This document shows, piece by piece, positions 48,126 to 60,140 of a stretch of DNA of 60,185 nt. The stretch spans positions 1-60,185 of the forward strand of contig JAGBXX010000027.1 in the NCBI GenBank assembly GCA_017629035.1. Reading direction: 5' to 3'. Made by a program: the position numbers and the translations under genes. The stretch comes from Alistipes sp. Lineage in GTDB: Bacteria > Bacteroidota > Bacteroidia > Bacteroidales > Rikenellaceae. The stretch's first letter is position 1; each line of letters begins with the position of its first letter. The notes under the pieces are model-generated. The model ran no database searches and was not told the DNA's origin. It saw only the letters and a list, made by a program, of their open reading frames with translations.

Positions 48126-49481
48126 ATGATTCTGAACATCATAGATACATCTACCACAATCGTCGCCCCAGCAACCGCTGCGGGCGGCGCTGTAATGGTA
48201 ACTCGCCTAAGCGGAAGCCGAGCAATAGAGATCGCCGACAAGATCTTTCGTGGACGCAAGCCACTGGCTGAGTGTGAGGGCTATACGCTCCACTATGGCA
48301 CCATACGCAACGAGCAGAGTGAGGTTATCGACGATGTTGTTGTGGCGCTCTTCCGTGCCCCAAACTCATATACGGGCGATGACACTGTCGAGATTACGAC
48401 ACACGGCTCGGAGCATATCTGCTCAGAGCTGCTACGCCTGGCAATAGGCTACGGAGCAACGATGGCCACTCCTGGAGAGTTCACCCGCCGAGCTTTCCTT
48501 GCTGGTAAGATGGATCTCAGTCGTGCCGAGGCCGTTGCCGACATCATATCCTCAGACTCCTCGTGGGCCCACACTATCGCCTCGACACAGATGCGTGGTG
48601 GATACTCGGCCAAGCTTGCCGAGATGCGTGGTGAGCTGCTAAGACTATGCTCGCTGCTTGAGCTCGAGCTCGACTTCTCGGAGGAGGATGTTGAGTTTGC
48701 AGACCGCACGTTGCTTAAGAGTATCATTACGGATGTTGAGCACCAGGTGTCAGTGCTGCTCACGTCATTCAGCACAGGCAATGCCATTAAGAATGGTGTT
48801 AATGTGGCGATTGTCGGTGAGCCAAATGTAGGCAAGAGCACCCTGCTTAATGCCCTTGTCGAGGATGACAGAGCCATGGTCTCGGATGTCGCAGGCACCA
48901 CACGTGACACTATCGAGGCTACCACAATAATCGACGGTATTCGCTTCCGTTTTGTCGACACCGCAGGTATACACGACACGGCAAATGAGCTTGAGAAAAT
49001 GGGTATTGAGCGCACCCATAGAGCAATCGAAAAGGCATATATCATCCTGCATCTAACCTCTGCCGAGAACCCCGAGTTCAAAGATATTGAGCGAAATGCA
49101 GATCAACATTACATCCAGGCTGTCAACAAGATAGATAAAAGCATAGATATAGATCGATCATCTGCCGGCTCCACTCTCTATATATCTGCAAAGCAGAATA
49201 TAGGCATTGACGAGCTCCGCCGCAGACTACGCTCAACGGTCGATACTTCGAGCCTTAATGCCAATAGTGTTGTCGTATCCAATATGCGCCACTACGCCGC
49301 CCTTCGTGCCGCCCACGAAGCACTCCTATCTGCCCATGCAGCAATCGAAAGTAACATGCCTTCGGACCTCATCAGCGAAGATATCCGCCAAGTCCTCCAC
49401 CACCTTGGCGAGATCACCGGCGAAATCACCTCCGACGACATCCTCCACTCCATCTTCTCCAAATTCTGCATCGGCAAGTAA
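48126..49481 (+). CDS. mnmE: tRNA modification GTPase MnmE (TrmE/ThdF)
   Basis: 451 residues. The N-terminal tetrahydrofolate-binding domain starts TTIVAPATAAGGAVMVTRLSG; G domain G1 [31 protein letters not shown]; the protein ends in the invariant FCIGK. With MnmG it puts the cmnm5 group on U34 of tRNAs. Codon choice changes over the last 150 to 450 bases (more GAA, CAA, AAA, TCC than before), and the final 18 bases resemble the SGI1 integration site, so the 3' end may have been replaced by an integrating element. Confidence 0.96.
   Translation: MILNIIDTSTTIVAPATAAGGAVMVTRLSGSRAIEIADKIFRGRKPLAECEGYTLHYGTIRNEQSEVIDDVVVALFRAPNSYTGDDTVEITTHGSEHICSELLRLAIGYGATMATPGEFTRRAFLAGKMDLSRAEAVADIISSDSSWAHTIASTQMRGGYSAKLAEMRGELLRLCSLLELELDFSEEDVEFADRTLLKSIITDVEHQVSVLLTSFSTGNAIKNGVNVAIVGEPNVGKSTLLNALVEDDRAMVSDVAGTTRDTIEATTIIDGIRFRFVDTAGIHDTANELEKMGIERTHRAIEKAYIILHLTSAENPEFKDIERNADQHYIQAVNKIDKSIDIDRSSAGSTLYISAKQNIGIDELRRRLRSTVDTSSLNANSVVVSNMRHYAALRAAHEALLSAHAAIESNMPSDLISEDIRQVLHHLGEITGEITSDDILHSIFSKFCIGK
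49464..49481 (+). other. Candidate integration site at mnmE 3' end
   Basis: TTCTGCATCGGCAAGTAA resembles the 18-bp core used by SGI1-family islands at the end of thdF/mnmE in enterobacteria. No second copy is seen up to 60185, so the other junction, if kept, is outside the window. Confidence 0.45.
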
Positions 49482-49495
49482 AATTGCATACCAAT

Positions 49496-49585
49496 GATAA
49501 AATGATTTATCATCGTTTATCATAAAGCGCTCAAAATGAGCGCTTTTTTTGTGCATAGTGATAAAATCATTTATCACTGTTTATC
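49496..49585. repeat. Two similar palindromic 26-base repeats
   Basis: 49496-49521 and 49560-49585 share GATAAAATnATTTATC followed by GTTTATC, and flank the mnmE terminator. This lies in the 364-base gap 49482-49845, which holds also a decamer array (49681-49720) and two CCTAGG palindromes (49772-49777 and 49811-49816); no gene is seen. Confidence 0.7.
49524..49550 (+). terminator. Terminator of mnmE
   Basis: AAAGCGCTCA / TGAGCGCTTT stem with a three-A loop followed by a T-run. Confidence 0.88.
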
Positions 49586-49680
49586 GTCGTTACGCAATAT
49601 TTCTTCGCCCTATTTCACCCTCAATGTCCAATATCATCATTTAGAAAAAATCTAAGTGCTTGATTGAGCGTATTTTGCAA

Positions 49681-49720
49681 TGAGGTGCAACGAGGTGCAA
49701 TGGAGTGCAATGAGGTGCAA
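49681..49720. repeat. Four tandem decamers
   Basis: Four 10-base units of TGAGGTGCAA (variants CGAGGTGCAA and TGGAGTGCAA) in a row, partly preceded by another TTGCAA. Iterated sites of this kind sit beside integrases as arm-type sites; use here unproven. Confidence 0.75.
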
Positions 49721-49845
49721 TGAAATGGCGAAATAAATTCTACATTCTACACGAAAGTATCATTTATCCCACCTAGGACATCGTCGGTGAAAATTTCGCC
49801 TTTTATTTCGCCTAGGTAGTGGACACTTCCCCAAATATCACTAAT

Positions 49846-50208
49846 ATGAGCAAGATTGAAATAAAAAAAGTATGTCAGTTTTGCGGTAAAGAATTTATTG
49901 CCCATAAACTGAATACAATGTATTGCTCTCACCAATGTTCGCAACGCAGTTACAAGGTTCGCCTAAGAGAGCAAAAGTTAGAAAAAGTTGTGCACCAAGA
50001 AAACTTTCCAGACATCCCCCCCACTAAACTTAAAAAGGAATATCTGTCGTGCGAGGATGTAGCCGAACTTATGAGGTCATTTTACTATTATATTATAGGG
50101 GTTACCATTAATTTAGATTTAAGGGGTCAGCCGACGCTGTTTCGAGCGGCCCAAAACATCAAATTTTCCACTTGGTCGTTGAATCTACCATGGCTAAAAA
50201 ATGTGTGA
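49846..50208 (+). pseudogene. Remnant zinc-finger/HTH excisionase-like protein
   Basis: 120 residues from ATG 49846. The N-terminal half shows a paired-Cys zinc ribbon (KVCQFCGKEFIAHK, YCSHQCSQRSYK) followed by a basic stretch and EYLSCEDVAELM, the opening of a MerR/excisionase-type HTH. Bacteroidales mobile elements code for proteins of this build next to tyrosine recombinases. After residue about 80 the HTH is lost and the sequence (YYYIIGVTINLDLRGQ) no longer fits, so the gene looks truncated by recombination. AT-rich, unlike neighbours. It sits at the boundary between mnmE and the sulfonolipid operon. Confidence 0.55.
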
Positions 50209-50211
50209 TTG

Positions 50212-50243
50212 TTTGGTAGAGTGAGAAATAATGTTTATTTTTG
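50212..50243 (+). promoter_or_regulatory. Promoter of the sulfonolipid/Hdr operon
   Basis: TTTG (50212-50215), a 20-base spacer and TATTTTTG (50236-50243) match the Bacteroidota -33/-7 consensus. Predicted start near 50250; leader about 57 bases. Confidence 0.75.
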
Positions 50244-50250
50244 CAAAATA

Positions 50251-50270
50251 ATAGTAAACACTTTTACTAT
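50251..50270 (+). promoter_or_regulatory. Candidate operator at the transcription start
   Basis: ATAGTAAACACTTTTACTAT is a perfect 8-base inverted repeat with a four-base centre, placed at the predicted start site, where a repressor would block transcription. The marR gene that closes the cluster carries ATAGTAACAT over its own start codon, sharing one half-site. Confidence 0.45.
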
Positions 50271-50306: not shown

Positions 50307-51383
50307 ATGGAATCATTTATGATTTCCGGAATCCAGCAGATTGGTACCGGAACTGTAGATTTCAGAAAGTCGTGGAACTGGTACATCGAGATGTTCGGCA
50401 TCGATGTGAAGATTCTGGAAGACGACACAGTTGCAGATCGAATGCTCCCATACACAGGAGGCGTGCCACATCAGCGTCATGCCTGCATTGCTGTAAATCT
50501 GCAGGGCGGTGGCGGATTCGAAATCTGGCAATACTCCAAGCGCAAGCCTGAGCCTTGTCCGTTTACAATATCAGCAGGTGACCTTGGCATCTTTGCAGCA
50601 AAGCTCAAGTGCCGCGACGTTGCAGCATTCCATAATATTCTTTCCCAGAAATGGCCTGACTGCACCACTCCGGAAACACTGCCTGACGGCACACCATGCT
50701 TCTATGTCAAGGACCTCTACGGCAACTGCTTCCAGCTCGTGGAAAGAAAAGACGTATTCATCGACCAGAAAAAACTCACCGGCGGAATGATCGGTGCAGT
50801 AATCGGAGTTTCAGACATGGAAAGATCCATAAGATTCTACCGTGACATACTAGGCTACGACATAATCATCAGCGACACCACCGGCCCGTTCAGCAAGCAC
50901 TTCTTCATGCCGGGTTCCGACAAGAACTGCCGCAGAGTCATCCTCGGCGCCCCAAAACGCAAAGGAGCATTCGCAGACCTGTTCGGCGACTCTACCATAG
51001 AGCTTGTACAGGCTCTGGAAAGCACTCCACGCAAGATCTACGAAGGACGCTACTGGGGAGACCCGGGCTTCATTCAGGTATGCTTCGATGTGACCGGAAT
51101 GGACAACATGAAGAAATTCTGCGCAGAGAAAGGCCATCCATTCACAGTGGACAGCTGCCCTGACGGAGAAATATTCGACATGGGAGACGCATCGGGACGC
51201 TTTGCCTACATCGAGGATCCGGACGGTACACTGATTGAGCTGGTCGAGACCGACAAAGTGCCGGTAGTAAAGAAATTCGGATGGTTCATAGACATGAGGA
51301 AACGCGATCCGGAAAAGAAACTCCCTAAATTCCTTTTTAGAATGATGGGACTTGTATCAAAAGAAACAATCAAAAATCAATAA
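50307..51383 (+). CDS. Two-domain VOC-superfamily protein
   Basis: 358 residues with two vicinal-oxygen-chelate modules: about 8-150 (GTGTVDFRKSWNWYIEMFGI, GGFEIWQYS, LYGNCFQLVE) and about 160-315 (IGVSDMERSIRFYRDILGY, FIQVCFDVTGMDNMKKFC, EDPDGTLIELVE). VOC proteins are metal enzymes such as epimerases, glyoxalases, lyases or dioxygenases; the closing Glu of each module is present, but the full metal set cannot be fixed by eye. It is the first gene of the operon and ends two bases before the sulA-like gene. No published sulfonolipid role is known to me. Codon use is GGA/GAA rich like the rest of the island. A second start at 50319 is possible. Confidence 0.8.
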   Translation: MESFMISGIQQIGTGTVDFRKSWNWYIEMFGIDVKILEDDTVADRMLPYTGGVPHQRHACIAVNLQGGGGFEIWQYSKRKPEPCPFTISAGDLGIFAAKLKCRDVAAFHNILSQKWPDCTTPETLPDGTPCFYVKDLYGNCFQLVERKDVFIDQKKLTGGMIGAVIGVSDMERSIRFYRDILGYDIIISDTTGPFSKHFFMPGSDKNCRRVILGAPKRKGAFADLFGDSTIELVQALESTPRKIYEGRYWGDPGFIQVCFDVTGMDNMKKFCAEKGHPFTVDSCPDGEIFDMGDASGRFAYIEDPDGTLIELVETDKVPVVKKFGWFIDMRKRDPEKKLPKFLFRMMGLVSKETIKNQ

Positions 51384-51385
51384 AT

Positions 51386-52651
51386 ATGTTTACAGATATT
51401 TTTGACAGAATCAGAAAGTCAGCAGGTGGCCCTATCGGCCAGTACCGTGAAAAAGCAGAAGGTTATTTCGCATTCCCACGCCTCGAGGGCGAACTGGGCC
51501 CAAATATGAAATTCAACGGCCAGGATGTTCTTTGCTGGAGTCTTAACAACTATCTCGGTCTTGCAAACCATCCTGAAATCCGCAAGGCAGATGCTGAAGC
51601 TGCAGCAAAATGGGGCCTTGCCTATCCTATGGGAAGCCGAATGATGACTGGCCAGACTCATCTTCACGAAGAACTTGAGCGCAGACTTGCCGCATTCGAG
51701 AAGAAGGAGGCTGCCTTCGAGTTCAACTTCGGCTATCAGGGCATCGTCTCGACAATTGACTCACTCGTATGCCGTCATGACGTCATTGTGTATGACGCAG
51801 AAGACCATGCATGCCTTCTTGACGGAATACGTCTGCATGTCGGAAGCAAATATAAGTTCCGTCACAACGACATCAAGGACTGCGAAAGAGTGCTTGCAAG
51901 GGCTTGCGAAGAAGCTGAAAATAAGGGTGGCGGAGTCCTCCTCATTACAGAAGGTGTATTCGGAATGACCGGAGCACTCGGAATCCTCGACCAGATTGCA
52001 GCACTCAAAAAGAAATACAAGTTCCGCATCATGATTGACGATGCTCACGGATTCGGCGTGATGGGCGAGCACGGACGCGGAACATCGGAGCACTTCGGAG
52101 TGATGGACGAGATCGACATCTACATCGGAGCATATGCAAAGTCAATGGCCATCATCGGCGGTTTCGTAGCAGCCGACAAGGACATCATCGACTACCTCAA
52201 ATACAACATGCGTTCGCAGATCTATGCAAAATCACTCCCTATGCCTATCGTGGAAGGCTGTCTCAAGAGACTCGACATCATCGACAGCCCTGAGGGAGAT
52301 GCACTCCGCGCACAGCTCTGGAAGGTGACAAGAAGCCTCCAGAAAGGATTCCGCGAGCTTGGATTCGATATCGGACCTGCCGAGGCATGTGTAACGCCTG
52401 TTCTTGTAAAGGCCGGAGTGAATTCAGCAGCCAACATCGCCGTTGCACTTCGCGAAGAGTACCACATCTTCTGTTCTGTTGTGATCTACCCGGTAATCCC
52501 TCCGGGAATGGTAATCTTCCGTGTCATCCCAACAGCAGCTCACAGCATGGCTGATGTAGAGAGGACGCTTGCAGCCTTCAAGGACATGAAGGAGAGACTT
52601 GACAGAGGAGAATTCGACAAGGAAATGCCCAATATGGCACTCCTGAAATAA
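51386..52651 (+). CDS. sulA: Cysteate acyl transferase, SulA-type (3-ketocapnine synthase)
   Basis: 421 residues, alpha-oxoamine synthase family (fold type I PLP). Seen: LNNYLGLANHPE, GSRMMTGQTHLHEELE, FNFGYQG, the cofactor-ring His/Asp region IMIDDAHGFGVMGEHGRG, and PLP Lys252 in YAKSMAIIGGF. Lys282 in IYAKSLPMP stands where serine palmitoyltransferases have Ala. In the characterised Alistipes finegoldii SulA the PLP lysine is 251 and the SulA-specific lysine is 281, the same 30-residue spacing. So this enzyme should condense acyl-ACP with cysteate to 3-ketocapnine, first committed step of sulfonolipids. The symbol is not the SOS gene sulA. Confidence 0.9.
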   Translation: MFTDIFDRIRKSAGGPIGQYREKAEGYFAFPRLEGELGPNMKFNGQDVLCWSLNNYLGLANHPEIRKADAEAAAKWGLAYPMGSRMMTGQTHLHEELERRLAAFEKKEAAFEFNFGYQGIVSTIDSLVCRHDVIVYDAEDHACLLDGIRLHVGSKYKFRHNDIKDCERVLARACEEAENKGGGVLLITEGVFGMTGALGILDQIAALKKKYKFRIMIDDAHGFGVMGEHGRGTSEHFGVMDEIDIYIGAYAKSMAIIGGFVAADKDIIDYLKYNMRSQIYAKSLPMPIVEGCLKRLDIIDSPEGDALRAQLWKVTRSLQKGFRELGFDIGPAEACVTPVLVKAGVNSAANIAVALREEYHIFCSVVIYPVIPPGMVIFRVIPTAAHSMADVERTLAAFKDMKERLDRGEFDKEMPNMALLK

Positions 52652-52654
52652 GCC

Positions 52655-53440
52655 ATGCAGTCAGTCTGGATTACAGGAGCATCCTCCGGAATCGGTGCAG
52701 CATGCGCCTACCGGTATGCAAAAGAAGGGGCAAGACTTGCTCTCACCTCTTCTTCTGCAGACCGTCTTGAGACTGTCGCAGCCAAATGCCGTGAACTCGG
52801 GGCAGAAGAGGTGACTGTCTTCCCCTTTGACCTCACATGCCTCGACGGCATTGATGACCTCACCGACAAAGTCTGGAATGCCCTCGGCGGCATTGACATA
52901 GTAATGCTCAATGCCGGCATCAGCCAAAGGACCGACGTAGAGGATACCTCAATGGATATGATTCGCAAGATAATGGAAATCAATTACTTTGCACCAGTAG
53001 CCATTGCAAAGGGTCTGCTGCCGAGAATGACCGCAGGAGGCGGAGGCAGGATTGCCGTGACAACATCCATCGCCGGAAGATTCGGATTCCCTCTGCGATG
53101 CGGATACAGTTCTTCAAAGTTCGCACTATATGGATTCTTCGAAACACTTCAGGCTGAATACTACGATGCCGGAATAAGAGTGACAATCGTATGTCCGGGC
53201 CGCGTGCAGACCAACATATCCAGATATGCCCTTGACAAGGGAGGAAAGCCTCACGGAGTGATGGATCCCGGTCAGGCAAGCGGAATGACTGCAGATGCAG
53301 CGGCACGCGTCATCACGAGAGCGATAGCAAAGGAGAAGAAGGAAGTGCTTGTCGGAAGGAAGGAACTTCTTATGGTATATATAAAACGTTTCTTCCCTGA
53401 CTTATGCGCCACTCTTGCCCGTAAAATCAAACCTATGTAG
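52655..53440 (+). CDS. SDR, probable 3-ketocapnine reductase
   Basis: 261 residues, classical short-chain dehydrogenase: TGASSGIG at 7-14, NAG at 86-88, Asn110, Ser138 and the YSSSK pair (Tyr151, Lys155). The look is that of membrane-linked DHRS7-type enzymes; the C-terminus is basic and hydrophobic (VYIKRFFPDLCATLARKIKPM). Three bases after the acyl transferase, it is well placed to reduce 3-ketocapnine to capnine, as 3-ketosphinganine reductase does in sphingolipid synthesis. That step is inferred from position and analogy. Confidence 0.85.
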   Translation: MQSVWITGASSGIGAACAYRYAKEGARLALTSSSADRLETVAAKCRELGAEEVTVFPFDLTCLDGIDDLTDKVWNALGGIDIVMLNAGISQRTDVEDTSMDMIRKIMEINYFAPVAIAKGLLPRMTAGGGGRIAVTTSIAGRFGFPLRCGYSSSKFALYGFFETLQAEYYDAGIRVTIVCPGRVQTNISRYALDKGGKPHGVMDPGQASGMTADAAARVITRAIAKEKKEVLVGRKELLMVYIKRFFPDLCATLARKIKPM

Positions 53441-53445
53441 CGGTT

Positions 53446-54144
53446 ATGGGAAAGTTGTATGATCTTTTGAGAGAAGACTATAGGGTGAAGGAAGGTCTGA
53501 AGACCTGCATCAACTGCGGAACCTGCACGGCTATATGCCCGGCAGCTGAATTCTACAGATATGACCCTCGCAGAATCGTGGACACGGTCCAGAGAGGCAA
53601 CGATGAAGACATCGAGGCCCTGCTCAAGAGTGAAACGATCTGGTACTGCGGAGAATGTCTCTCCTGCCTCACAAGATGTCCCCGCCGGAATGGTCCGGGA
53701 CTGGTGATAATGGCATTGCGCGACCTTTCTGCAAGGCTCGGCTACTTCGTTGAATCAGAGAAAGGACGCCAACTGTATCCTCTCACAAAGATAATGACAG
53801 GCAACATCCTCAAATACGGCTACTGCATACATCCTGACACCTTCAGCTGGGAAGACCACGTGGAATCCGGCCCCGTCTGGAAATGGCACACGGAACATCT
53901 CGAAGACAGTTACGCAAGACAGGGAGCCAATTTCCGAGGCACAGGTCCGGGAATCCTCCGCAACATCCCGAAAGAGTCTCTTGAAGAACTGAAGAAGATA
54001 TTCGACGTCACAGGGGCGACGGAAAGGATGGAAACGGTGGAGAGATTCTCAAAAGCCAAAGCCGAAGAAATGGGAATGACAATGGAAGAGTATTTTCGAC
54101 ACACATTCGAACACTGCTCCGACGGGCATTTCAACAACGACTGA
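53446..54144 (+). CDS. HdrC-like iron-sulfur protein (C1)
   Basis: 232 residues. Two [4Fe-4S] motifs: C21/C24/C27/C31 (CINCGTCTAICP) and C68/C71/C74/C78 (CGECLSCLTRCP), the ferredoxin-like pair of heterodisulfide reductase subunit C. A C-terminal extension of about 140 residues (WEDHVESGPVWKWHTEHLED) makes it longer than methanogen HdrC and nearer to the first HdrC of sulfur-oxidising sHdr and related sets. Predicted cytoplasmic electron carrier between HdrA and HdrB. Five bases after the SDR, six before HdrB. Confidence 0.88.
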   Translation: MGKLYDLLREDYRVKEGLKTCINCGTCTAICPAAEFYRYDPRRIVDTVQRGNDEDIEALLKSETIWYCGECLSCLTRCPRRNGPGLVIMALRDLSARLGYFVESEKGRQLYPLTKIMTGNILKYGYCIHPDTFSWEDHVESGPVWKWHTEHLEDSYARQGANFRGTGPGILRNIPKESLEELKKIFDVTGATERMETVERFSKAKAEEMGMTMEEYFRHTFEHCSDGHFNND

Positions 54145-54150
54145 CAGAAA

Positions 54151-55221
54151 ATGATATATCAAGGCAAACAGAAGATATGGAGTGATTATCAGAAGGAGAT
54201 CCCTGATGATAAGTGGTACTACGTGCGCAGCTGCATACGCCAGAACTTCTTTCCTGCGTCGGAAAAGATGTTCCTGGAAATATGCAGGAACGTTCTGGGC
54301 AAGGACATATACGAAAATGAACACCACACTACCTGCGGAGGAATCGCCTATCACTGCGACACAATCCCCCAGGAGACAGCAATGACCATCGTCGCAAGAC
54401 AGTTTGCCCTGATGACCGAAGCAGGTTACGAAAATTATGTCGCATCCTGCATCACATCATTCGGCAACTACACGGAGATTCTCGAGACCTGGAACGAATT
54501 CCCGGAACTTGAGGCCAGAATACGCGAACTGCTCTGGAAAGCCTGCAGAAAGGAATTCAAGAAGCCCAAGCATCTGGCACACTCGAGTGACCTGATTTTC
54601 AAGTTCAGAAATGAAATAGCTGAAAAAGCAAAATTCCGCCTTGTAAACAAAGAAACGGGAGAACCTCTCAAGGTGGTGGAACATATCGGCTGCCACTACT
54701 CCAAGATGTTCCCGTCAAAAGGCGTCGGCGGGGCCGAATATCCATACGTCCTGACAGGAATGGTGGAATCCTGGGGAGGCAACATCATCGACTACCCTGA
54801 GAGAAGACACTGCTGCGGCTACGGATTCCGTCAGTACCACGTAAAGGCGAACAGAGGCTACTCGATCTCGAATACGCACAAGAAATTCGAGTCCATGGCC
54901 CCTTACAAGCCGGATATGATCATAACCAACTGCCCCGGATGCCCGTATTTCCTTGACAGATGGCAGTACGTGATTGCAGAAATGGAAGGAAAGACCTACG
55001 GCCAGAACGGATTCGGAATACCGGTCTTCACATATGAAGAAGTAGCCGGACTGGTATTGGGATATGACCCGTGGGATCTCGGACTTCAGCTGCATCAGAC
55101 AGCTGTCGAGCCGCTTCTTGACAAGATCGGAATAGAATACGCGCCTGAAGACAAGTACAAAGGAGTTGACAGTAAGGACATAATGAGACCGGAACTTCCG
55201 AAAGTAATGAAATGCTTCTAA
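54151..55221 (+). CDS. HdrB-like CCG-domain protein
   Basis: 356 residues with two CCG-type modules. The C-terminal one is intact: C181, C221-C222-G and CPGC (C261, C264), the ligands of an unusual [4Fe-4S] cluster that splits disulfides in HdrB. The N-terminal one is reduced: C28 is kept, but the CCG reads TCG (Thr61-Cys62) and the last pair reads C100-I-T-S, so two of five cysteines are missing. One active cluster is therefore expected. Substrate might be a thiol, disulfide or sulfane-carrying protein. Confidence 0.87.
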   Translation: MIYQGKQKIWSDYQKEIPDDKWYYVRSCIRQNFFPASEKMFLEICRNVLGKDIYENEHHTTCGGIAYHCDTIPQETAMTIVARQFALMTEAGYENYVASCITSFGNYTEILETWNEFPELEARIRELLWKACRKEFKKPKHLAHSSDLIFKFRNEIAEKAKFRLVNKETGEPLKVVEHIGCHYSKMFPSKGVGGAEYPYVLTGMVESWGGNIIDYPERRHCCGYGFRQYHVKANRGYSISNTHKKFESMAPYKPDMIITNCPGCPYFLDRWQYVIAEMEGKTYGQNGFGIPVFTYEEVAGLVLGYDPWDLGLQLHQTAVEPLLDKIGIEYAPEDKYKGVDSKDIMRPELPKVMKCF

Positions 55222-55233
55222 AACCACCGGGAT

Positions 55234-56250
55234 ATGAAGGAGATAATAGCGATAATAGGAGGCGGAATAGCCGGAATGGAAGCTGCAGCACAGCTTCTTA
55301 AACTGGGTCACACCCCTATCATAATCGAGAAAAGCGACCGTCTGGGCGGCCATGTGGCACGCTGGAACAAACTTTTCCCGGACCTCACACCTGCCGGCGA
55401 GCTCATCGACAAGATGACAGAAGCCTGCAAGGAGGCCAACATATTCCTCAACACCGAAGTTTCCCTGGTCAACCGTCTCAGGGATGGCTACAACATAATC
55501 CTGTCCAACGGTATAACGATAAGCACCAAGTACATCCTCATGACTACCGGATTCAAGATGTTTGAAGCGTCAAAGAAGGAAGAGTATGGATATGGAATAT
55601 ACAACAATGTCATCACTAATTCGGATCTTGAGAATTGGTTCAGCGGAAACAGGGACGAACGGATAGACAGTTCGTCAATGAAGACCATAGGATTCGTGCA
55701 CTGCGTGGGATCGCGCGACGAAAAGGCCGGCAACGGCCAATGCTCGAAAGTGTGCTGCATCACTGCCGTCAAACAGGCTATCGAACTGAAGGAAATGTAT
55801 CCTGATGCTCATATATACTGCTTCTACATGGACCTCCGGCTGTTCGGGAAGAAGTTCGAAGACTTCTACACCAAGGCACAACGCGACCACGGAATACACT
55901 TCATCAGAGGCAGAGTATCAGAGGTAAGCGAAAACATCGACGGCAAGCTGATAGTCAAGGCAGAGGACACTCTTCTCGGCAAGCCTGTCAAGGTCACCCT
56001 TGACCTTCTCGTGCTCATGTCAGGAATGGCATGCAACCCGGACAGCGCAAGAATCGCATCCATGATCGCCCTCCCGACAGACTCGGACAAATTCCTCAAA
56101 AGCGAAGACAACATAATCCATATTACATCTTCGCCAAAAAAGGGAGTGTTCTACGCCGGAACCTGCACAGGTCCCAAGACCGTACCTGAAACCCTTGCAG
56201 AGGCACGTTCGGCAGCCTTAGATATCCATTTCAAGATACAGGAGTCATAA
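55234..56250 (+). CDS. HdrA-like FAD protein (short form)
   Basis: 338 residues. The FAD dinucleotide-binding motif GGGIAGMEAAAQLLKLGH starts at residue 9, GGHVARW follows, and the HdrA signature HCVGSRDEKAGNGQCSKVCC holds C157, C170, C174 and C175. The end reads GTCTGPKTVPETLAEARSAA, as in other HdrA. It lacks the N-terminal and ferredoxin domains of methanogen HdrA, so it has the size of sHdrA or QmoA and no evident site for flavin-based bifurcation partners. Predicted FAD electron hub of the complex. Confidence 0.88.
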   Translation: MKEIIAIIGGGIAGMEAAAQLLKLGHTPIIIEKSDRLGGHVARWNKLFPDLTPAGELIDKMTEACKEANIFLNTEVSLVNRLRDGYNIILSNGITISTKYILMTTGFKMFEASKKEEYGYGIYNNVITNSDLENWFSGNRDERIDSSSMKTIGFVHCVGSRDEKAGNGQCSKVCCITAVKQAIELKEMYPDAHIYCFYMDLRLFGKKFEDFYTKAQRDHGIHFIRGRVSEVSENIDGKLIVKAEDTLLGKPVKVTLDLLVLMSGMACNPDSARIASMIALPTDSDKFLKSEDNIIHITSSPKKGVFYAGTCTGPKTVPETLAEARSAALDIHFKIQES

Positions 56251-56252
56251 AG

Positions 56253-56591
56253 ATGAACGGATTCGGTTTCAAACTTTCACCAAGTTCAGCCATCAATCTG
56301 GACAAGATTGACAGGACATTGTTCGACGAGCTGTGCAGAATAGAGCCCGATGCTCTGCGCTGTATGGCCTGCGGATCGTGTACTGCCACATGCACATCGT
56401 CTGGTCTCAGCGGAATGAGTGTAAGAAAGATGCTGATGAATCTTCAGAGAGGAAAGATAGACGAGACAGCCAGGATGATATCAGGATGCATGCTCTGCGG
56501 GAAATGCACAATGGTATGTCCGAGAGGCATAAAGACCCGCCGTCTCATATTGACAGTCAGTAGGTTATATAAAGAGGAGGGAAAGGTATGA
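56253..56591 (+). CDS. HdrC-like iron-sulfur protein (C2), small
   Basis: 112 residues, two [4Fe-4S] motifs: C37/C40/C43/C47 (CMACGSCTATC, no trailing Pro) and C79/C82/C85/C89 (CMLCGKCTMVCP). Size and layout match classic HdrC. It starts two bases after HdrA and its stop overlaps the start of the membrane gene (ATGA at 56588-56591), so tight coupling with that subunit is likely; it probably hands electrons from HdrA to the membrane protein or the reverse. Confidence 0.88.
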   Translation: MNGFGFKLSPSSAINLDKIDRTLFDELCRIEPDALRCMACGSCTATCTSSGLSGMSVRKMLMNLQRGKIDETARMISGCMLCGKCTMVCPRGIKTRRLILTVSRLYKEEGKV

Positions 56592-58411
56592 TAAGGGAGA
56601 TATACCCATCCGGTTTCAACAGTTTTGTGACTCCTTTCATGCTGGGAATGATATTCGTTCTCTGCTGGTGTCTCGTCGGTGCATTCTTGGTGCTGCTTGA
56701 ACTGCCGAAAGAAGACAGAAAGAAACTGGCAATATCCTTCCTCAATCCTAAGATAATGGTGAAGAACATCAGAGACTGGTTCTTCGACTGTCTCTTCCAT
56801 GTGAAGCTATGGAAACGCAACAAACTTCTGGGATATATGCATTCCAGCATAGCCTTCGGATGGTTCATGATAATCGTCATTGGTCATATAGAGGTATTCC
56901 TCTACACTCCTGAAAGAATCCACCGTCTGTGGTATCCGATATTCTTCAGATATTTCGTTGCAGTTTCCGACAATACAATGGAAGGAGCTCCTCTTTTCTT
57001 CCTTATGGACCTCTTTCTGCTTATAATACTGATCGGCATATTACTGGCCATAATCAAAAGAGTGCACTCGCGTATGTTCGGAATGCGACGCACGACACGC
57101 GGCAGCCTTACAGACCTGATAGGACTGTATGCCCTGTGGTGCATATTCCCGTTAAGACTTCTTGCAGAAGGATTCACTGCCTACATCAGCGGAGGATCAT
57201 TTCTCACAAAGTCATTGAATAATCTCCTGCACCTGTTCTACAGTGACCCCACTAATGCATTACCAGTCTGGTGGGCATATTCCATTTCATTGGGAGTATT
57301 CATGTGCGTACTTCCGTTCAGCAGATATATGCACATCCCTGCGGAAATCCTTCTCATTCCGATGAGAAACGCCGGTATTCCGATAAGGTATTCCCGCAAA
57401 GGCATATCAAGACTGCAGGTCCACTCATGCCCAGGCTGCGGAGTATGCATAGATGCATGCCCTCTCAGTGCTGTGCCGGCCAACGTAAGAGACACCACAG
57501 TCTACCTCAACAGACAGCTGAAACGCAACAACAGAAGACGCATAGAAGAAATCAGCGACAAATGCCTCCTGTGCGGAAAATGCTCGGCAGTGTGCCCGGT
57601 GGGAGTGGAAGGAGACAAGCTCAGGATAGCACATCGAGCTACAAGGGAATATGGAATATCAGCGGATTATTCGATGATAGACCAAAGCGGATTCGTGAAG
57701 GACAAAGGCAGGCGTGTGCTGTATTTCGCAGGATGCATGACGCACCTGACACCTTCTATCAAGATATCCCTCACATCCATTCTTGAAACAGTCGGAGAGA
57801 ATTATTCCCTTATGGATGAAGACGGAGGAATATGCTGCGGAAGGCCGATGCTGACAGCCGGCAGGAAGGATGCCGCCATGCACATGATCGAGAAGAACAC
57901 AGAAATCATCAGATCTTCTGGAGCATCGGTGCTACTGCTGAGCTGCCCAATCTGCTACAGGATATTCAAGCAGGACTATAAACTCGAAGGAATTGAGATC
58001 CTTCACCATAGCGAATACATTGACAGACTTATCTCTGAAAAGAAACTGGATATATCCGGAACAGGCCTCAGGTACGCCTACCACGATCCTTGTGAACTCG
58101 GAAGGGGATGCGGGATATATGAAGAGCCGAGAAATGTGGTGTCTGCTGCAGGAGTACTCGTGGAAGGAGCAAAAAAGGGGAAAGAGAGCATATGCTGCGG
58201 AGGCAGCCTCGGCAGCCTTACTCTCAGTGACGAACAAAGGAAACGATTGGCAGAGAATGCACTCGGCAATCTCACGGCAGACTCGCCTGATGCAGTGGTG
58301 ACAGCCTGCCCTCTATGCAAGAACACTTTCAACAGATATGCAGCCGTGCCGGTTCTTGACATTGCGGAAATAGTGGCACGGGCCTCAGGTAGAAATAACA
58401 TAAAGCAATAA
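56588..58411 (+). CDS. Fused HdrE-HdrC-HdrD membrane oxidoreductase
   Basis: 607 residues joining three units. Residues 1 to about 260: NarI/HdrE-like membrane domain with five or six helices and candidate haem-b His85 (GYMHSSIAFGW), His100 (GHIEVFLYTP) and His249. Residues about 278-345: two [4Fe-4S] motifs (CPGCGVCIDACP at C281; CLLCGKCSAVCP at C326). Residues about 378-585: two intact CCG modules (C383, C416-C417, C453/C456; C502, C536-C537, C574/C577). The build resembles HdrDE, DsrMK and the ETF:menaquinone oxidoreductase family, so exchange of electrons with menaquinone is expected. A glycolate-oxidase-like or succinate-type role is less likely. Confidence 0.88.
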   Translation: MIREIYPSGFNSFVTPFMLGMIFVLCWCLVGAFLVLLELPKEDRKKLAISFLNPKIMVKNIRDWFFDCLFHVKLWKRNKLLGYMHSSIAFGWFMIIVIGHIEVFLYTPERIHRLWYPIFFRYFVAVSDNTMEGAPLFFLMDLFLLIILIGILLAIIKRVHSRMFGMRRTTRGSLTDLIGLYALWCIFPLRLLAEGFTAYISGGSFLTKSLNNLLHLFYSDPTNALPVWWAYSISLGVFMCVLPFSRYMHIPAEILLIPMRNAGIPIRYSRKGISRLQVHSCPGCGVCIDACPLSAVPANVRDTTVYLNRQLKRNNRRRIEEISDKCLLCGKCSAVCPVGVEGDKLRIAHRATREYGISADYSMIDQSGFVKDKGRRVLYFAGCMTHLTPSIKISLTSILETVGENYSLMDEDGGICCGRPMLTAGRKDAAMHMIEKNTEIIRSSGASVLLLSCPICYRIFKQDYKLEGIEILHHSEYIDRLISEKKLDISGTGLRYAYHDPCELGRGCGIYEEPRNVVSAAGVLVEGAKKGKESICCGGSLGSLTLSDEQRKRLAENALGNLTADSPDAVVTACPLCKNTFNRYAAVPVLDIAEIVARASGRNNIKQ

Positions 58412-58415
58412 TACT

Positions 58416-59702
58416 ATGGACTTTACACCTATAAAGTATTCATTGGTCTGCTGTGCAGACGGACATAGATTCGAAGACACTGGATGGTCTCTTGCAGACC
58501 CTCAATGCGGATGTCCAAGCCTTGTCAGGGCAGAATATGAAAAGAAGCAATATGAGCCTCAAGAGGACCTTGACGGCTTCTATAGATACGCCAACTGGCT
58601 TCCGGTCCAGAGGACACTTAAAGGTTCAGGAACCCCTGTAACCTACAGAAGCACCGCTCTCGCAGCTGAACTGGGCCTTGAAAACCTCTACATCACATTC
58701 TCAGGATGGTGGCCCAAGATCGGCGCCAAGATGACGACCTGCTCGTTCAAGGAGACAGAAGCATATTCAGTATGCGGTAGACTTGGTGCGGACAACAGGA
58801 AGATTCTTGTTGTGGCCTCAGCAGGAAATACAGCCCGAGCGTTCGCAAAGGTATGTTCTGAGAACAATATACCGCTTCTCATATCCATTCCGGCAGACAA
58901 CATCGGCGCAATGTGGTTCAGCAAACCGCTCAACGACTGCGTCAAGATCATCGCATCACCTGAAGGATCGGACTACTACGACGCCATCGCACTTTCCGAC
59001 AAAGTCTGCACAGACCCAGCATTCATGGCCGAAGGCGGCGCAAAGAACGTAGCACGTCGCGACGGCATGGGCACAACCCTTCTCTCTGCCGTTGAAGCAA
59101 TTGGCAGGATTCCTGATGCCTATTTTCAGGCTATCGGAAGCGGCACTGGAGCCATTGCCGTGTGGGAAAACAACCTCAGACTCATTGAAGACGGAAGATG
59201 GGGATCACACAAGATGCGCCTCTACCCATCACAGAATGATCCGTTTACAATAATGTATGATTCTTGGAAACGGCACTCGCGTCAACTGGTGGATATGACA
59301 CCTGATCAGGCCCGCAAGGCAGCATCCGAGATTGACGCAAAGGTCCTTTCAAACAGAAAGCCGCCTTACTCATTGGCAGGAGGCCTTTTCGATGCAATGG
59401 AAGACGCCGGCGGAGATATGTTCAAGGTCAGCAACACAGAACTCAGGTACTGGAAGAAGAGATTCGCGGAACTTGAAGGAATAGACATCCACGATGCTTC
59501 GGCTGTAGCAGTTGCTTCTCTTGCTCAGGCAGTCCGCGAAGGCTCAGTCAAGAATGAGGAGACAATAATGCTGAACATCACGGGTGGAGGAGAAGAACTC
59601 GCAAAATCAGAGAATGAGGTCTTCTATGCGAAACCTCATCTCGTCCTTGATCCGGCACTTCCACCGGAAGATATAATCAGCGCTGTAAAAGATTTATTCT
59701 AG
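58416..59702 (+). CDS. Cysteate synthase (threonine synthase-like PLP enzyme)
   Basis: 428 residues, fold type II PLP enzyme. N-terminal Cys pairs (C12-C13, C31, C33) suggest a zinc ribbon. PLP Lys112 lies in CSFKETEA, and ASAGNTARAF (134-143) is the cofactor phosphate and substrate loop; ITGGG near 390 binds PLP. The family includes the cysteate synthase of methanosarcinal coenzyme M synthesis, which converts O-phosphoserine and sulfite to cysteate and phosphate. With a SulA-type gene in the same operon, cysteate supply for sulfonolipid is the natural role; plain threonine synthase is unlikely here. Its last nine bases overlap marR. Confidence 0.87.
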   Translation: MDFTPIKYSLVCCADGHRFEDTGWSLADPQCGCPSLVRAEYEKKQYEPQEDLDGFYRYANWLPVQRTLKGSGTPVTYRSTALAAELGLENLYITFSGWWPKIGAKMTTCSFKETEAYSVCGRLGADNRKILVVASAGNTARAFAKVCSENNIPLLISIPADNIGAMWFSKPLNDCVKIIASPEGSDYYDAIALSDKVCTDPAFMAEGGAKNVARRDGMGTTLLSAVEAIGRIPDAYFQAIGSGTGAIAVWENNLRLIEDGRWGSHKMRLYPSQNDPFTIMYDSWKRHSRQLVDMTPDQARKAASEIDAKVLSNRKPPYSLAGGLFDAMEDAGGDMFKVSNTELRYWKKRFAELEGIDIHDASAVAVASLAQAVREGSVKNEETIMLNITGGGEELAKSENEVFYAKPHLVLDPALPPEDIISAVKDLF

Positions 59703-60140
59703 CCCATTCCCGGCAGAAGTCATGTTACGGTTGAGCTTGTGAAGAGTCACAAGGAAAGAACGGAGTTCCTCTTCACTGATACCTACGAGCATCTCATCGA
59801 GAATTGAAACACCTTTCTGCTTGGCACCATGCTTCAGTATCTCGGCTTTCTCTGTGAGCATAAGCGTATTGGATCTCCGGTCCTGACGGTTCTGCTCACG
59901 AACTACAAAGCCCTTGCGCTCAAGAGCATCAACCAGTTTGGTCACAGAATTCTTATCCTTCTGCATCTGGTCAGCAAGCTGCTGCTGAGACATGGAACCT
60001 TGATTCCAAAGAAGATCAATGAGAATAAACTGCTCTGGAGTAAGAGGGACCTCCATCTGTCTGAGCTTAGCAGCAACGAACTGCTTGAGTTTGCAGCCTG
60101 TGAGATTCAATTCGACAGCGATTTCCTTGGATAGTAACAT
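59694..60140 (-). CDS. MarR-family transcriptional regulator
   Basis: 148 residues, winged helix-turn-helix with the MarR layout: FILIDLLWNQGSMSQQQLADQM (HTH), DKNSVTKLVDALERKGFVV (recognition helix) and RQDRRSNTLMLTEKAE (wing). MarR proteins are usually repressors released by small ligands. It converges on the cysteate synthase gene with a nine-base overlap, so it is not in the operon but adjoins it. Control of the operon is inferred from position and from a shared half-site with the palindrome at 50251-50270. Codon use is of the island type. Confidence 0.9.
   Translation of the reverse strand: MLLSKEIAVELNLTGCKLKQFVAAKLRQMEVPLTPEQFILIDLLWNQGSMSQQQLADQMQKDKNSVTKLVDALERKGFVVREQNRQDRRSNTLMLTEKAEILKHGAKQKGVSILDEMLVGISEEELRSFLVTLHKLNRNMTSAGNGLE

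Follow-up and report, generated by a model that had tools for sequence, protein, structure and literature searches.

Why should the genes of a heterodisulfide reductase (Hdr)-like complex lie within an operon for the synthesis of a sulfonolipid? The question is raised by nine genes on contig JAGBXX010000027.1 of Alistipes sp. (assembly GCA_017629035.1), which was analysed over its whole length of 60,185 nt and is called the window below. The genes encode, in order, a VOC/glyoxalase-fold protein (VOC), a SulA-type cysteate acyl transferase of the alpha-oxoamine synthase type (AOS), a short-chain dehydrogenase/reductase (SDR), five Hdr-like proteins (the module) and a cysteate synthase (CYS). 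On balance, we favor the view that the operon serves to make both the sulfonolipid base and the sulfite needed for it, the latter by means of an Hdr-like complex oxidizing reduced sulfur. A first reading of the letters alone (the sequence-only reading) had proposed that the complex supplies a substrate of the pathway; this was supported by gene order, alternation and distribution, and the substrate was made specific as sulfite. Cysteate synthase requires sulfite as co-substrate and joins it to phosphoserine.

Conservation of the gene order in relatives

Genome contigs were scanned with AOS, and the best 80 of 231 matches, mostly from metagenome-assembled genomes (MAGs) of herbivore guts according to record titles, were taken as relatives' loci. 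CYS was found downstream of AOS in 47 of the 80 loci; in 28 of these 47, three or more of the five Hdr genes lay between the two. All 28 module-bearing loci have CYS, and none of the 80 carries the module without it. Because 18 of the 80 named-record loci repeat the full order VOC-AOS-SDR-HdrC1-B1-A-C2-HdrD-like-CYS and 28 of the 80 have three or more Hdr genes in the interval from AOS to CYS, the nine-gene operon is not a product of chance or an assembly artefact.

At some loci CYS is replaced beside AOS by PALP2, a pyridoxal phosphate enzyme (PF00291) that is 20-25% identical to CYS (L054-L056, L070, L151, L163, and 11 of the 80 named loci). PALP2 is a candidate for a second kind of cysteate synthase.

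Other sulfite-related genes in the same slot

A YeiH-family gene was present in 16 of 17 AOS-CYS loci without Hdr vs 4 of 27 with Hdr (p 1.7e-7). The count covers those 44 of the 47 AOS-CYS loci in which 1.5 kb or more of sequence follows CYS, the 3 shorter ones being left out. The family was assigned by PF03601, the TIGR00698 score being under its cut-off. In Hdr-less operons this membrane protein is encoded downstream of CYS, sometimes past a MarR or SDR gene. YeiH of Salmonella is reported to drive sulfite resistance (PMC12880088). No HdrB match was found in five of six YeiH-operon genomes without linked Hdr, the sixth having HdrB elsewhere, and no CysH match in three of three tested genomes with Hdr-less operons; the completeness of these genomes is unstated.

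CysH is a sulfite-making enzyme. At L164, L187, L188 and L189, which belong to other families, its gene stands between those of AOS and a PALP enzyme. The order AOS-CysH-PALP2 was found in the genomes G145, G240 and G069, and in G085 with a YeiH-like gene in addition. In G288 AOS adjoins a larger set, VOC-CysH-CysD-CysN-anion transporter-SDR-CysQ-PALP2; this set, ending in PALP, is seen beside AOS at L190. By gene order and similarity G104 shares the CysH layout of G288, and the version in G204 is cut by the contig end. These CysH-AOS loci were chosen from tables and from a selected set of 16 genomes and are a non-random sample.

Hdr, CysH or YeiH genes thus fill the same slot. Sulfite is the product of CysH and the co-substrate of cysteate synthase, and YeiH belongs to the sulfite response in other bacteria. 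On the simplest account, the Hdr complex supplies sulfite. Gene content, conserved order, the alternation with sulfite-related genes and the kept metal-binding motifs together suggest that the module probably produces it.

Architecture of the Hdr-like module and proposed mechanism

The sequence-only reading had called the Hdr-like complex complete. All five genes are present; however, HdrA is of a short type, and the place of a second HdrB is held by a membrane-anchored HdrD-like protein. HdrC1 (53446-54144) and HdrC2 (56253-56591), identified by family search and motif alignment, have two [4Fe-4S] motifs each. HdrB1 (54151-55221; family and PDB searches, motif alignment) has two CCG motifs, the one complete and the other degenerate. 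The HdrA-like flavoprotein (55234-56250; NCBIfam, PDB and alignment) has four conserved Cys and is of the sHdrA type. Its 338 aa were matched best in the PDB by 6tjr, which we take to be sHdrA of Hyphomicrobium, over residues 5-330, and methanogen HdrA chains align to it just in part. It falls short of the full-length HdrA of CoB-CoM heterodisulfide reductase, scoring 180-254 bits on HdrA models with cut-offs of 1100-1400.

The HdrD-like subunit (56588-58411, 607 aa), found by family search, has two [4Fe-4S] motifs, two complete CCG motifs and, at its N-terminus, a hydrophobic domain in which His 71, 85 and 249 are conserved. Its best PDB match is EtfD (9ojn), with the sequence match limited to residues 376-579 and a loose fold match over the whole chain. 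EtfD is reported to feed electrons to menaquinone and to overlay HdrDE (PMC13083937). In alignments of 121-151 rows for each subunit, 97% or more of the rows keep the two [4Fe-4S] motifs each of HdrC1, HdrC2 and the membrane subunit, as well as the four HdrA Cys, the one complete CCG motif of HdrB1 and the two of the membrane subunit.

We propose the following route. The HdrC1B1A-C2-HdrD-like membrane complex would oxidize sulfide or protein-bound sulfane sulfur to sulfite, the sulfur substrate being held at noncubane [4Fe-4S] sites, and electrons would pass through flavin adenine dinucleotide (FAD) and [4Fe-4S] clusters to the membrane subunit and on to menaquinone. Cysteate synthase would then convert sulfite and phosphoserine to cysteate, the SulA-type enzyme would form 3-ketocapnine by condensing this cysteate and an acyl donor, and reduction by the SDR would give capnine. 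Oxidation with electrons going to menaquinone is preferred because HdrA is of the sHdrA type and the membrane subunit is EtfD/HdrDE-like. The oxidative direction, the sulfur donor and the quinone are nevertheless proposed less firmly than sulfite production. More tentatively, with somewhat less than even confidence, we suggest an LbpA-free, anaerobic, menaquinone-linked sulfide-to-sulfite Hdr complex that serves biosynthesis and not respiration, with sulfonolipid operons swapping their own sulfur oxidation, sulfate reduction by CysH and YeiH-type uptake.

The module might also yield sulfite reductively, by splitting the S-SO3 bond of thiosulfate or of an S-sulfo thiol with electrons from the quinone pool or ferredoxin. 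Hdr proteins are classically disulfide reductases, the CCG sites are kept in HdrB1 and the membrane subunit, and the alternation described above is compatible with any sulfite source. However, the best match of the short HdrA is 6tjr, taken to be sHdrA, and the very low potential that thiosulfate reduction demands is awkward for a membrane subunit of the menaquinone type. We regard the reductive direction as unlikely, though worth keeping in mind.

Distribution over the order

The survey covered 393 genomes of the order. AOS was found in 276 of them, CYS in 105, VOC in 138 and CysH above its cut-off in 236. HdrB matches occurred in 153 genomes; 26 with weak matches were excluded and 127 with strong ones retained. 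Among AOS+ genomes, 74 have both Hdr and CysH, 44 Hdr only, 136 CysH only and 22 neither; the corresponding numbers for AOS- genomes are 6, 3, 20 and 88. Thus Hdr or CysH is present in 254 of 276 AOS+ vs 29 of 117 AOS- genomes. With one genome for each of 119 families (G001-G119, going by the numbering), the figures are 79 of 88 vs 11 of 31, and in families lacking CysH, Hdr was found in 14 of 23 AOS+ vs 0 of 20 AOS-. Among AOS+ genomes Hdr and CysH are anticorrelated (odds ratio 0.27, p 8e-6), more weakly so at family level (p 0.049).

Hdr genes adjoin AOS, CYS or PALP2 in 12 genomes: the window's own (G000), G008, G041, G081, G108, G141, G185, G224, G305, G341, G368 and G376. The linked locus of G305 has HdrA, HdrC2 and the membrane subunit only, and in G340 VOC alone adjoins Hdr. 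Linked genomes carry CysH in 1 of 12 cases vs 73 of 106 other AOS+Hdr+ genomes, a group that includes genomes with unread loci; sixteen HdrB loci were unread. In G000, which is 85% complete, no match to CysH or to siroheme sulfite reductase (NIR_SIR) was found. No NIR_SIR match was found in G224, G008 or G081 either, and all four genomes are outside the 239 CysH genomes.

Three further observations concern neighboring genes. A sulfate-permease/STAS gene (L053, 13876-15651) lies directly after CYS in G224, a genome outside the CysH set. Pairs of HdrC1 and HdrB1 without HdrA, HdrC2 or the membrane subunit occur in L246, L270, L271, L280, L281 and others, and their neighbors resemble, by eye, Mrp-type ATPases and small NifX/NifB-like proteins; these isolated pairs probably belong to a different system. 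Members of a response-regulator family accompany Hdr genes, mostly upstream, at 18 loci (e.g. L254, L070), of which 15 have full modules.

Several results weigh against sulfite supply by the module. The neighborhood of Hdr genes with sulA or cysteate synthase, which the sequence-only reading had made one test of its proposal, gives a mixed picture, as it is common among near relatives (the 28 of 47 AOS-CYS loci above) but rare order-wide: outside the 12 linked genomes, none of 100 further HdrB loci of the order is near AOS, CYS, PALP2 or VOC, and CysH-like genes lie near 3 of them. The linkage is a trait of some lineages and no rule of the order. Both sources are present in 74 AOS+ genomes and neither in 22, and within genus g104 two genomes have Hdr (G101 and G286) and two have neither source (G201 and G349). 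Co-occurrence of CYS and Hdr is weak (43 of 105 CYS+ genomes vs 33.9 expected, p 0.03), and many surveyed genomes are incomplete MAGs. YeiH may export sulfite. Finally, no LbpA/GcvH-like open reading frame was found in 240 loci, 150 of them with HdrB1, by BLAST with one GcvH at E 1e-3, and a single GCV_H match per genome was found in five of five genomes.

Phylogeny of HdrB and origin of the operon

The HdrB tree included 132 rows, among them nine named loci that had been selected for it. Its linked rows, 21 in all, split into two separate starred sets. The first has 15 rows, 13 of them linked, with CYS; the second has 12 rows, 8 of them linked, with AOS and mostly PALP2, L057 being linked with VOC only. 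The tree requires at least five changes, two on starred branches alone, with gain and loss indistinguishable.

HdrB of the operon is 80-88% identical to that of linked loci of family f9 vs 65-69% to that of four relatives in family f1. Because these four members of its own family have a different HdrB, unlinked within the stretches read, and no VOC match, the operon of the window was probably acquired and looks foreign in its family.

The foreign look of the operon and the 100 unlinked HdrB loci would both be expected if the module served redox or energy functions of Bacteroidales in general, had come into the operon by horizontal transfer of the cluster and had no link to the pathway. This explanation is quite unlikely, as two separate HdrB clades are tied to the same pathway, no other gene family is tied as closely to full modules, and strong HdrB matches occur in 118 AOS+ vs 9 AOS- genomes. 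That the complex handles no sulfur and moves electrons for lipid tailoring (e.g. with VOC or SDR, for acyl desaturation or reduction) would suit the tight packing of Hdr genes with AOS, SDR and VOC and the VOC gene directly 5' of Hdr genes in L054-L057, but is very improbable in view of L051-L053, where the module adjoins CYS with no AOS, SDR or VOC nearby, and of CysH or YeiH in module-less operons.

Lipid-pathway enzymes

AOS (51386-52651) matched 7u7h, the SulA of A. finegoldii, best in the PDB (544 bits, 58.6% identity). It retains N53, H140, K251, K281 and R376, and K282 is kept in at least 97% of 107 aligned AOS rows. Lys281 has been suggested as a possible discriminator between sulfonolipid and sphingolipid enzymes (PMC9304779). 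The SulA-type residue set is thus complete in the operon AOS, and cysteate-dependent activity is predicted. CYS (58416-59702) scored 460.9 bits on TIGR03844, above the curated cut-off of 324.9, and 574 bits against PDB 9k3c. The SDR (52655-53440) scored 215.6 bits on NF004825, 'SDR family oxidoreductase' (cut-off 215), and is a candidate 3-ketocapnine reductase. The VOC protein (50307-51383) has two domains and was assigned by family search (PF00903).

Outside the operon, genome G000 encodes another AOS (G000:C41:1808-3049), which shares 83% identity with the SulA chain of A. finegoldii, and another CYS (G000:C18:72134-73411). This second AOS is probably native, giving a genome with two sulfonolipid gene sets.

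Operon layout and regulatory signals

As the sequence-only reading had noted, the nine genes are tightly packed on one strand: all lie on the + strand at 50307-59702, with gaps of 2, 3, 5, 6, 12 and 2 bases, then a 4-base overlap, then a gap of 4. It had also described a single consensus promoter and no internal terminator. One sequence TTTG-N20-TATTTTTG, which we take to be the Bacteroidota-type promoter consensus, lies 63 bases 5' of the VOC gene (50212-50243, + strand); exact matches number 5 in the 60-kb window vs 0.68 expected, and this match is the sole one within or close to the operon. Sigma-70-like matches, in contrast, are at chance level (16 vs 12.4 expected, standard deviation 3.5). 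The best + strand terminator-like site (49524-49546) precedes the operon, but three weaker + strand sites fall inside it; both strands of the region together have 16 such sites vs 8.8 expected (standard deviation 2.9).

Just 3' of the promoter-like sequence is a perfect palindrome, AGTAAA-N4-TTTACT (50253-50268), a candidate operator. A MarR-family regulator is encoded at the operon's end on the - strand (59694-60140), and such a gene stands beside the equivalent operon in several relatives too. The AGTAAA/TTTACT arms were found upstream of VOC in 9 of 50 screened loci (L071, L073, L078, L081-L085, L124), with seven different spacers, mostly other than that of the window. Perhaps the palindrome is the operator of this MarR protein. 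Directly upstream of the operon (48126-50208) are mnmE and a short open reading frame, which codes for 129 aa when read from a GTG start and contains a CxxC...YCSHxC motif. Its 121 aa beginning at 49843 had no match among Pfam or NCBIfam families. This stretch is a possible trace of insertion.

Comparison with known systems

In the open-licence PMC literature no paper was found that connects Hdr to sulfonolipids. In the portions of that literature available, cysteate, sulfite and sulfonolipid were not found treated together, and the sulfite source of an anaerobe without sulfate assimilation was unstated. If our reading is true, the operon explains where anaerobic Alistipes-related gut bacteria get sulfite for sulfonolipids, and an Hdr-like complex gains a biosynthetic role, a link not found in that literature. 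On the more tentative proposal of an LbpA-free complex, the sulfonation of membrane lipids would be coupled to respiratory electron transport in these gut Bacteroidales. Bacterial sulfonolipids have been reported to affect host inflammation (PMC11211663).

The module resembles the sHdr-LbpA system of Hyphomicrobium and others in its gene order, C1-B1-A-C2-B2-like (PMC6067878), in the short HdrA, matched full length by 6tjr, and in sulfite as the proposed product. By analogy with that system, it may oxidize sulfane sulfur to sulfite. Compared with the sHdr set hdrC1-B1-A-hyp-C2-B2, it has C1-B1-A-C2 in order, no hyp gene and a membrane-fused HdrD-like protein at the place of B2; it also differs in its tie to lipid synthesis. 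Because LbpA is described as essential in the sHdr pathway (PMC6067878, PMC10332631) and none was found here, the module is not classed as a member of the sHdr system, though sHdr-like in its proposed working.

Methanogen HdrABC and HdrDE share with the module HdrB/HdrC homology, CCG domains and an HdrDE-like membrane subunit; the HdrA of the operon, however, is about half as long, and the operon is without a hydrogenase or formate dehydrogenase gene. The HdrD-like protein is similar to mycobacterial EtfD, which combines a heme domain in the membrane with Fe-S clusters and a CCG region (PMC13083937); however, the operon has no electron transfer flavoprotein (ETF) genes, and its HdrD-like protein is part of a multi-subunit Hdr set.

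With the sulfonolipid pathway of Alistipes, Capnocytophaga and Chryseobacterium (CapA or cysteate synthase, SulA/CapB, CapC/KCR) the operon shares cysteate synthase, a SulA-type enzyme and a candidate reductase. Alistipes and Odoribacter are reported to use an archaeal-type cysteate synthase and not CapA (PMC10191378). The reductase genes of A. finegoldii and C. gleum are described as unclustered with the other sulfonolipid genes (PMC11211663), whereas the operon here clusters them, together with Hdr and VOC.

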